From: Agromyces badenianii
Lineage (GTDB): Bacteria > Actinomycetota > Actinomycetes > Actinomycetales > Microbacteriaceae
Direction of reading: 5' to 3'
NCBI RefSeq assembly: GCF_003070885.1
Contig: NZ_CP028913.1
Span: 744,001-808,000, forward strand
DNA length: 64,000 nucleotides
This document shows, one piece after another, positions 31,684 through 34,402 of the stretch; the stretch's first letter is position 1; the number at the start of each line of letters is the position of its first letter. The translations under genes were made by a program, and so were the position numbers. Under the pieces are notes generated by a model. It saw only the letters and a program-made list of their open reading frames with translations. It did no database searches and was not told the origin of the DNA.

Positions 31684-31704
31684 GCGGCGCGCGCTCCGCG
31701 CCGC
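31684..31704. terminator. GC-rich hairpin after hisS
   Basis: GCGGCGCG / CGCGCCGC with a five-base loop begins three bases after the hisS stop. No T-run. Possibly a terminator; it merges into the tandem repeat that follows. Confidence 0.4.
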
Positions 31705-31764
31705 CCGCGTCTCGCCCGCGTCTCGCCCGCGCCGCCCGCGCCTCGCCCGCGCCTCGCCCGCGCC
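31703..31764. repeat. Two tandem copies of a 31-bp GC-rich repeat
   Basis: Units 31703-31733 and 31734-31764 each consist of sub-repeats GCCCGCGYCTC, GCCCGCGYCTC, GCCCGCGCC. The copies differ only where the first has T and the second C. It is non-coding, between hisS and the first palindrome. Confidence 0.75.
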
Positions 31765-31796
31765 GAGCCCGTATGCGTTCCTCCCAAAAGGGAGTC

Positions 31797-31850
31797 GATC
31801 CGTCGATCTTCGCCCTTTGCGAAGGATCGTGGGGCGAAGATCGACGGATC
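31797..31850. repeat. Long perfect inverted repeat (palindrome copy 1) upstream of the endonuclease gene
   Basis: Arms 31797-31815 and 31832-31850 are perfect 19-base reverse complements around a 16-base centre. The left arm core is CCGTCGATCTTCGCCCTT and the right arm core GGGCGAAGATCGACGG. The same core recurs at 32944-33005 on the other side of the gene. It could form a stable hairpin in RNA or extruded DNA. No T-tract follows on either strand, so a simple Rho-independent terminator is not the obvious reading. Confidence 0.85.
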
Positions 31851-31939
31851 AACGCGGCGCGTACGCGACTGAGTGGTGAGATCTCCGGGGGTGTGGAGAA
31901 CGCGCGGCCTGAAACGCCGCGATCGCGCATCATGTGACG

Positions 31940-32860
31940 ATGCCACGCCGCGTTCCGTTGCCCCAGCACGTGCACGGATCGGCCTTCCGCTCGAGCGATA
32001 CGGAGTATCACGGGCTCGGTCCGAAACGATTGCGCTCGGCCGATGTCGATCACCCGTTCACCGGCGTGAGCGCCGTTCGCCTCGACCTCGAGTCGGTGGT
32101 CGACCTCTGCCGTGCTTACGAGCCGCTGCTCCGGCGAGGCGAGGCGTTCTCCCACTCGACGGCGGCTCGATTGCACGGACTCCCGTTGCCCCCGGGTGTC
32201 CCGTTGCGACCGCTCCACGTGCTCGCCCCGCACGGGGTCGCGCGGGCCCGAACCGTGGGAACGACGGGCCACGAGGCATCCCGAGCCTTCGAGACGGACC
32301 TTCTCTTCGGGGTACCGGTCGTCTCCGCGGTGATCGCGTGGTGCCAGCTCGGATCGATGCTCGCGGTCGACGAGCTCGTCGCGATCGGTGATGCACTCGT
32401 CACGGGTCGGCGGAACGGACGTCACCGCGAGCCGCCTCGCGCGACCTTCGAGGATCTCGAGGCGGCGCGGCGCCGGTGGGGCCGGCGGCGCGGGGCCCGC
32501 TCCCTCGCGGAAGCGCTGCCTCGCGTGCGGCAGGGCGCCGAGTCGCGGCCCGAGACCCTCACCCGGCTGCTGCTCGTCGATTCCGGCCTGCCGGAACCCG
32601 CCATCGCGCTGCCGATCACAGTGGAGGACGGGAGCGAGGTGCTGCACCCCGATCTCGCGTACCCCGATTGGCGGATCGTCATCGAGTACGAGGGCGGGCG
32701 GCATCGCGATCCGGTGCGGTGGAAGCGGGACATCACGCGGCGCGAGAAGTTCGAGGCGGCAGGATGGCGCGTCGTCCGGGTCACCTCGGACGACTTGTTC
32801 CGCGAACCCGACGCGTTCGTCGCCCGGTTGCGTCGTGTCATCCGTTCGCGATCGGTGTGA
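31940..32860 (+). CDS. Putative DUF559/Vsr-like endonuclease-domain protein with AbiEi-like N-terminus
   Basis: A 306-residue protein. The N-terminal region (about 40-155) contains FSHSTAARLHGLPLP and AWCQLGSMLAVDELVAIGDALV. This pattern is seen in actinobacterial proteins annotated as AbiEi-like/DUF559, whose function is unproven. After an Arg-rich linker, the C-terminal 100 residues look like a very-short-patch-repair-type PD-(D/E)XK fold: E205, HPDLAYPDWRIVIEYEGGRH (D238, E249/E251), RDITRREKFEAAGWRVVRVTSDDL. ATG 31940 is preferred; GTG 31934 is possible. The gene stands alone between hisS and eno, with a palindrome 90 bp before and another 84 bp after it. A CGCGGC/GCCGCG hairpin (31903-31921) precedes the start. 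Nuclease activity is inference. Confidence 0.75.
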   Translation: MPRRVPLPQHVHGSAFRSSDTEYHGLGPKRLRSADVDHPFTGVSAVRLDLESVVDLCRAYEPLLRRGEAFSHSTAARLHGLPLPPGVPLRPLHVLAPHGVARARTVGTTGHEASRAFETDLLFGVPVVSAVIAWCQLGSMLAVDELVAIGDALVTGRRNGRHREPPRATFEDLEAARRRWGRRRGARSLAEALPRVRQGAESRPETLTRLLLVDSGLPEPAIALPITVEDGSEVLHPDLAYPDWRIVIEYEGGRHRDPVRWKRDITRREKFEAAGWRVVRVTSDDLFREPDAFVARLRRVIRSRSV

Positions 32861-32943
32861 AGGCCGGGCACGGTCACGCACGCACGCCCGCACACACGCC
32901 CGCCCACGCCCGAACGCTGCGTCCCGCGCGCCCGCTCGACCAT

Positions 32944-33005
32944 CCGCGAACCGTCGATCTTCGCCCTTCCCGGGCAATGCAAGGGCGAAGATCGACGGTT
33001 CGCGG
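32944..33005. repeat. Long perfect inverted repeat (palindrome copy 2) downstream of the endonuclease gene
   Basis: Arms 32944-32968 and 32981-33005 are perfect 25-base reverse complements around a 12-base loop (32969-32980). The arm includes the same CCGTCGATCTTCGCCCTT core as copy 1. Flanking bases differ from copy 1 but remain paired (GAA/TTC here, GAT/ATC there). It lies about 50 bp before the likely eno -10 box. Confidence 0.88.

Positions 33006-33055: not shown

Positions 33056-34402
<1,347 letters not shown>

Follow-up and report, generated by a model that had tools for sequence, protein, structure and literature searches.

The described system that most resembles the locus presented here is that of the repetitive extragenic palindromes (REP) and their associated tyrosine transposases (RAYT), in which, according to PMC2817692, some of the palindromes of a gene are also found in strains that lack this gene. 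The two protein types met at this locus are described from other settings: the antitoxin AbiEi binds two 23-bp inverted repeats that are 3 bp apart (PMC7319586), and the EDxHD homing endonuclease I-Bth0305I dimerises on a target of nearly 60 bp (PMC3943268). The element in question lies in the window, i.e. the whole 64-kb stretch of Agromyces badenianii DNA that was analysed, and consists of a gene bracketed by two long palindromes; its product is predicted to fuse an AbiEi-like domain to an EDxHD/Vsr-like nuclease domain. The balance of evidence tips towards this palindrome-gene-palindrome unit being an autonomous mobile element of an undescribed type. The best reading is that of a self-propagating element, convergent on the REP/RAYT arrangement with an unrelated enzyme.

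The association of gene and palindromes is observed well beyond the window. The flanks of 118 homologue loci of the Microbacteriaceae (51 in Agromyces and 67 in other genera of the family) were scanned for ungapped hairpins of score ≥14; the loci were chosen by similarity rank and blind to their flanks, some rows being passed over, and include close relatives, hence non-independent cases. Within 350 bp of the gene, 135 hairpins are found in 82.6 kb, against 4 in 209 kb at more than 600 bp from the gene and none in 104 kb within genes, i.e. the density of strong palindromes is ~86-fold higher next to the gene than at a distance. Hairpins are present on both sides in 41 loci, on one side in 47 and on neither in 30; the both-side cases amount to 28 of the 67 loci of other genera and 13 of the 51 in Agromyces. 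A class-wide search gave 27 further loci, with 35 hairpins in 18.9 kb of flank against 4 in 48.6 kb, at a threshold of 13 that may admit some ordinary hairpins among the single ones. By our own count, 17 of these loci are outside the family (11 with hairpins on both sides, 5 on one, 1 on none) and 10 inside it (2, 4 and 4, respectively), a few repeating earlier genomes. In a contrast set of 30 loci taken for the top PF18741 matches, which include many giant proteins, a hairpin of score ≥15 is present at 3.

The two palindromes of a gene resemble each other. In the 41 loci with hairpins on both sides, the upstream and downstream palindromes of the same locus align with a mean score of 37.0. For palindromes taken from different loci it is 28.4 at a protein identity of ≥60% (n=28), 10.0 at 50–60% (n=87) and 8.5 below 50% (n=1525), the shuffled value being 7.3. 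The palindrome sequence therefore turns over completely between subfamilies while the pair around one gene stays alike. At 40 of the 41 loci, the own partner outscores every partner from a protein of less than 50% identity; the exception, which is L181 by list order, has a downstream hairpin resembling an ordinary short one. In a relaxed test, a matched pair is present in 77 of the 118 loci versus 17 of 590 cross-locus pairs drawn at random, among which there may be true relatives. The sequence-only reading of the window had proposed that gene and palindromes belong together: the enrichment within 350 bp, the 40 matching pairs and the relaxed test bear this out.

The window locus is composed as follows, coordinates being those of the 64-kb stretch.

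31797..31850, no strand: upstream palindrome, 19-bp perfect arms and 16-nt loop
31934..32860, plus strand: gene of the AbiEi-Vsr fusion nuclease, open frame, 308 amino acids
31934..32533, plus strand: predicted AbiEi-like domain, residues 1-200, proposed palindrome-binding part
32537..32857, plus strand: predicted EDxHD/Vsr-like nuclease domain, residues 202-308
32552..32731, plus strand: E-D-x-H-D span, with E207 (32552-32554), D240 (32651-32653), H257 (32702-32704) and D266 (32729-32731)
32944..33005, no strand: downstream palindrome, 25-bp perfect arms and 12-nt loop
30389..31681, plus strand: hisS (histidyl-tRNA synthetase), left neighbour outside the element, named from its translated open reading frame
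33122..34402, plus strand: eno (enolase), right neighbour outside the element, named in the same way

The start codon of the nuclease gene is the GTG at 31934, an ATG being found at 31940. The two long perfect inverted repeats noted earlier are confirmed, as is the location of the unit between hisS and eno by translation of the open reading frames. Of the 18-base arm core that they were said to share, three arms carry an exact copy; the remaining arm, at 31830-31847 on the minus strand, departs from it by 2 mismatches. At up to 3 mismatches, this core has 4 matches in the window against 0.18 expected. The flanking palindromes (scores 25 and 19) are the only hairpins above 14 in the 64 kb, the next ones scoring 14, 14 and 13, and in 40 first-order Markov shuffles of the window the top score never exceeded 15. 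Over 164 palindromes, the median stem is 23, the median loop 12 and the median length 59; the upstream palindrome is located a median of 91 nt before the gene match. Unpaired stem positions comprise 65 G-T, 45 A-C and 115 other mismatches. A reading as RNA was rejected: Rfam yielded just two matches, both far below their gathering scores, and G-T is little in excess among the mismatches. Between hisS and the first palindrome, at 31700-31772, are ~11-bp direct repeats (CTCGCCCGCG-like). Tandem palindromes precede the gene at a few other loci, three at an 83-bp step in L064 (1184-1400) and two in L065, L144, L147 and L208; they recall the clustered REPs known as bacterial interspersed mosaic elements (BIMEs).

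The only Pfam matches of the window protein are PF04480/DUF559 (25.1 bits, above the cut-off of 20.6) and PF18741 (33.3 bits, below the cut-off of 38.2); Pfam recognises no AbiEi domain in it. In the predicted structure, an AbiEi fold (residues 5-199) is followed by an EDxHD/Vsr nuclease fold, and the relative P0221 exceeds the PF09407 cut-off. The first assignment as a DUF559/Vsr-like PD-(D/E)XK protein covered only the C-terminal nuclease part, residues 5-199 being AbiEi-like by predicted fold. Foldseek alone gave no match in the PDB at E≤0.001, and a sequence search of the PDB none at E 1. Residues E207, D240, H257 and D266 are invariant across 73 aligned homologues and, by our reading, probably represent the EDxHD signature. 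A homologue at E≤1e-15 is present in at least 204 of the 299 genomes of the family search, up to 7 candidates per genome having been scored. The nuclease gene diverges faster than its neighbours, with 56% identity where hisS has 86.5% and eno 87.9% (15 loci), and is under purifying selection, with ratios of nonsynonymous to synonymous substitution (dN/dS) of 0.12-0.27 in 14 gene pairs. Some homologues (L130, L150, L231) display in-frame stops, so decayed copies of the gene seem to exist.

Such a protein might be a defence or toxin-type nuclease, a free-standing AbiEi-Vsr enzyme that attacks foreign DNA while the palindromes serve as titration or self-marking sites. PADLOC returns weak matches for three of five proteins (mREase_II, E 8.8e-4 for P0115; the others ≥0.013), and VsrA of Caulobacter, a DUF559 Vsr-like enzyme, is described to be able to cause a DNA-damage response (PMC12907096). 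Nothing that looks like a toxin, a methyltransferase or another defence partner adjoins the window gene, however, the neighbours being hisS and eno, and subfamily-specific palindromes on both sides are left unexplained. We consider a defence role very improbable.

Palindromes of these families are also dispersed away from the gene. The A. badenianii genome (G000; 3.05 Mb, one contig) contains 7 palindromes of the window family at up to 3 mismatches and none with a backward-read control. An arm search without gap constraint recovered six pairs, all 31 nt apart, the seventh being found with the gap fixed. Two of the 7 flank the gene and five are solo. Among 60 genomes searched with a fixed gap, which misses copies of other spacing, the window palindrome occurs at its spacing in 5: G000 (7), G015 (7), G008 (4), G026 (3) and G028 (3). 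Within the genus, the most similar genes found are those of G015 (70%) and G028 (69%); the former has a window-family palindrome on both sides, the latter one upstream and a degenerate one behind. In Jiangella, all 12 genomes have 11-156 arm matches of a family of their own (at most 1 mismatch, both strands summed) and none to a control pattern, and 8 genomes from other genera of its family have 0-3; one of these, G473, has a related gene and a variant palindrome. Jiangella genome G503 alone holds 66 forward and 69 reverse arm matches (~65 copies), in the listed part mostly as pairs 45-46 nt apart. Around 17 of its solo palindromes (L275-L289, L292, L293), the 16 bases to the left are C-rich (0.52) and those to the right G-rich (0.50), for a background of 0.36/0.37; pairing beyond these palindromes was not found (6.41 of 16 pairs observed, 6.37 in shuffles). 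In the three palindrome families examined, genomes that have the gene carry its cognate palindromes dispersed and in abundance, G026 and G503 being the orphan cases.

That most palindromes of a family are away from the gene, and that some genomes have them with no close gene found, is what would be seen if they were REPs that a different enzyme, such as a RAYT encoded at a distant locus, mobilises, the genes merely adjoining them. We give this explanation very little credence: the pairing with the gene is specific over the 118 loci (no search for RAYTs was made in these genomes), and paralogues within A. badenianii carry palindromes of their own, different from those of the window gene. Homologue L026 (838953-839819 of the genome contig) has a different long palindrome on one side, and homologue L027 (345445-345912 of the same contig; a weak one, 28% identical over 160 residues) has different long palindromes on both.

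Occupied and empty sites can be compared at two places. In the 12 Jiangella genomes, one site is empty in 7 (G594, G556, G512, G503, G483, G578, G493), where the flanks are continuous. The unit is intact in G539 and G414, where it points in opposite directions, decayed pieces are left in G447 and G521, and G431 is not assignable. G539, G414, G447 and G521 have the start of the insertion in common, which is consistent with a single old event followed by an inversion in one lineage. The empty site is without a palindrome; the presumed target is therefore carried by the element itself. The hisS-eno site was located via the eno start in 60 genomes and 30 loci were fetched, with hisS upstream of eno in 26. 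Empty sites, for which the sequence-only reading had suggested a search, exist in relatives: 18 of the 30 loci are without the gene (gaps of 90-471 bp), 9 are occupied, 1 has a solo palindrome, 1 another gene, and 1 is undecided (L252). The solo palindrome (L269) belongs to genome G036, where a gene of its palindrome family is located on another contig (L064), behind the three tandem palindromes mentioned above. The other gene, in G082 (L267, 284-1500), is apparently unrelated, glycosyltransferase-like by eye, and no hairpin was found there in the scan. In the gene-free gap of L255 (G079), a stretch after the hisS end looks like a decayed half of the window palindrome family. The gene or pieces of it adjoin eno in 18 of 60 Agromyces genomes, reversed in 5 (G007, G029, G073, G075, G081), and both orientations are also seen at several other sites. 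Relatives of 74-86% identity (e.g. L222, L223, L224, L234) share no flank by blastn, the program used for flank comparison; tblastx gave spurious matches in GC-rich DNA. Related units at different sites, with empty sites in relatives, are found here as in transposable elements in general.

An explanation without mobility is autoregulation, the palindromes serving as operators, perhaps also as bidirectional terminators, for a repressor of AbiEi type with a nuclease domain, and the scattered copies as its regulon sites. AbiEi and Rv2827c are described to autoregulate through 23-bp inverted repeats in their own promoters (PMC7319586), the upstream palindrome stands at a possible operator position, and, of the four solo copies viewed in A. 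badenianii out of five, three are, by our reading, clearly intergenic and the fourth probably so. Yet this explanation predicts neither a matching palindrome behind the gene nor ~65 copies in one genome, it leaves the clean empty sites and both orientations at a fixed site unpredicted, and the nuclease residues are invariant. We hold it to be unlikely.

For the self-propagating element, the following mechanism is proposed. The AbiEi-like domain fused to the EDxHD/Vsr nuclease would recognise its own cognate palindrome; two subunits would sit on the two arms, each arm being one AbiEi-type half-site of ~23 bp, and the two nuclease domains would be positioned over the variable centre. Two AbiEi-like domains on the arms and two nucleases over the centre would be the simplest fit to the 23-bp repeats of AbiEi, the ~60-bp target of I-Bth0305I and the 23/12/59 medians of stem, loop and length. 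As arms and DNA-binding domain would have to match, both would diversify together and fast. A cut at the centre might lead, through repair, to copies of the unit elsewhere, to its inversion, or to its reduction to a single palindrome, in a manner resembling the formation of solo long terminal repeats (LTRs); solo palindromes would then be dispersed non-autonomous copies. A cut in the symmetric site repaired from an intact unit could account for the two orientations, for the similarity between the palindromes of a pair and for the solo remnants.

A different route would be that of IS200/IS605 and RAYT, the nuclease acting on the palindrome as a single-stranded DNA hairpin during replication and moving the single strand. 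The organisation matches the REP-rayt-REP one described in PMC2817692, and the arms pair while the loops vary freely. The spacing speaks for the duplex instead: all six A. badenianii arm pairs are 31 nt apart and most of the listed G503 pairs 45-46 nt, and near-constant spacing within a genome together with free loop sequence favours duplex half-sites over a single-strand hairpin. The unpaired stem positions give no strong sign of a single-strand fold. EDxHD nucleases are hydrolytic and are not known to form a covalent 5'-tyrosyl intermediate. We judge the single-strand route quite unlikely.

Several points weigh against the self-propagating element. We infer the binding geometry, the cutting, the copying route and the driving of dispersal by the protein, and insertion at a palindrome-free site would need a further step. 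At 21 of the 118 loci, strong palindromes are absent and so are weak matched pairs. The relative loop orientation of the two palindromes is direct in 23, inverted in 12 and tied in 27 of 62 loci; fixed terminal inverted repeats are rejected as a rule on these counts. At the Jiangella site, GC-rich extra bases are present outside both palindromes and no clear target duplication is seen, so the true ends of the element are uncertain; the hisS-eno junctions are too diverged for exact ends. Much of the hisS-eno occurrence fits vertical descent at one site. The five solo palindromes of A. badenianii have no clear homologue within ~3 kb (weak matches, E≥0.044). In G008, a relative of 59% identity at hisS-eno has a different palindrome while the genome carries the window family, and in G026 the window palindrome is present with a best gene relative of 36% identity. 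The G503 palindromes look like an orphan population with no close gene found among the scored candidates (best gene-profile match E 1.4e-11, the scoring having covered 7 of 94 candidates), and no homologue is present between a pair of them ~585 bp apart. Co-occurrence for another Agromyces subfamily (2-13 arm matches in 8 of 8 genomes where the cognate gene was seen; a mean of 0.5 in 52 other genomes, 39 of them with none; one match overall for the control pattern) is partly circular, the flanking palindromes being included in the count. Palindromes at many loci without a homologue nearby had been named beforehand as a finding that would speak against the proposed unit: this is partly so, namely for five of the seven A. 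badenianii copies, for G026 and for G503, and we count it against the reading.

Whether the self-propagating elements form a large, unrecognised actinobacterial class, in which an AbiEi-type operator pair became the element end and each nuclease recognises, as two half-sites, and cuts no palindrome but its own of ~60 bp and so spreads, flips and converts units and solo palindromes, seems to us an evenly balanced question. If so, hundreds of actinobacterial proteins annotated as ‘DUF559’ or ‘endonuclease domain-containing’ would be the enzymes of a mobile-element class for which no name was found, palindrome families of unknown origin would gain a maker, and the REP-like arrangement would have arisen more than once with unrelated enzymes. 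This would bear on the identity of the enzyme behind the movement of palindromes without a tyrosine transposase, and from dozens of co-diversified nuclease/target pairs one could read the code by which a compact nuclease recognises a ~60-bp site. In the open-licence PMC papers searched, no title or abstract describing such an association of gene and palindromes was found. We rate the element as new in kind because the enzyme known to have this role for palindromes is of a different, unrelated type; by arrangement alone, it is a REP/RAYT variant.

The known systems each share a part of these features. With the MTES_1575-type Vsr restriction endonucleases (PF18741), the element has the nuclease domain family in common, MTES_1575 itself being a giant helicase/HEPN fusion (PMC3710099). 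With the AbiEi antitoxins of the AbiE type IV toxin-antitoxin system, it shares the predicted two-domain fold of the N-terminal 200 residues and the paired inverted repeats of 23 bp bound by AbiEi (PMC7319586). It differs in the fusion to a nuclease and in palindromes that are on both sides of the gene and dispersed, and open reading frames next to the window gene, those of hisS and eno, include no AbiEii nucleotidyltransferase toxin, nor do the open reading frames of the unit show a further clear gene. The EDxHD homing endonuclease I-Bth0305I and Vsr have the catalytic-domain fold seen in the predicted structure and, by our reading, probably the same E-D-x-H-D residues, and the nearly 60-bp target of the I-Bth0305I dimer (PMC3943268) compares with the ~59-nt palindromes. 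In the present element, the target is presumed to be the palindrome found on either side of the gene instead of an intron or gene site, and the DNA-binding part is AbiEi-like. The CGTC-tagged REPs, compared by description only, are likewise dispersed palindromes reported without a dedicated transposase, but are 20-40 bp long and have no partner enzyme known (PMC3733652). The REP/RAYT system differs in its enzyme, since the window protein is, by Pfam and predicted fold (AbiEi plus EDxHD/Vsr), not a Y1 (HUH) tyrosine transposase of the IS200/IS605 type. It differs as well in palindrome length (REPs of 20-40 bp as given in PMC3733652, ~59 nt here) and in its GTAG tag rule, which is not seen here; nor do the flanking palindromes keep to the inverted orientation, the loop orientation being variable. 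As described for REP/RAYT in PMC2817692, the gene is bracketed by two palindromes, palindrome and protein co-diversify, dispersed copies are abundant where the gene is, and the gene evolves faster than its neighbours; the bracketing palindromes also match each other (both sides in 41 of 118 loci, 40 of these 41 matching, 77 of 118 in the relaxed test). The resemblance to REP/RAYT drawn from the window alone was therefore apt, as co-diversification, fast divergence and dispersed copies all recur with this different enzyme.
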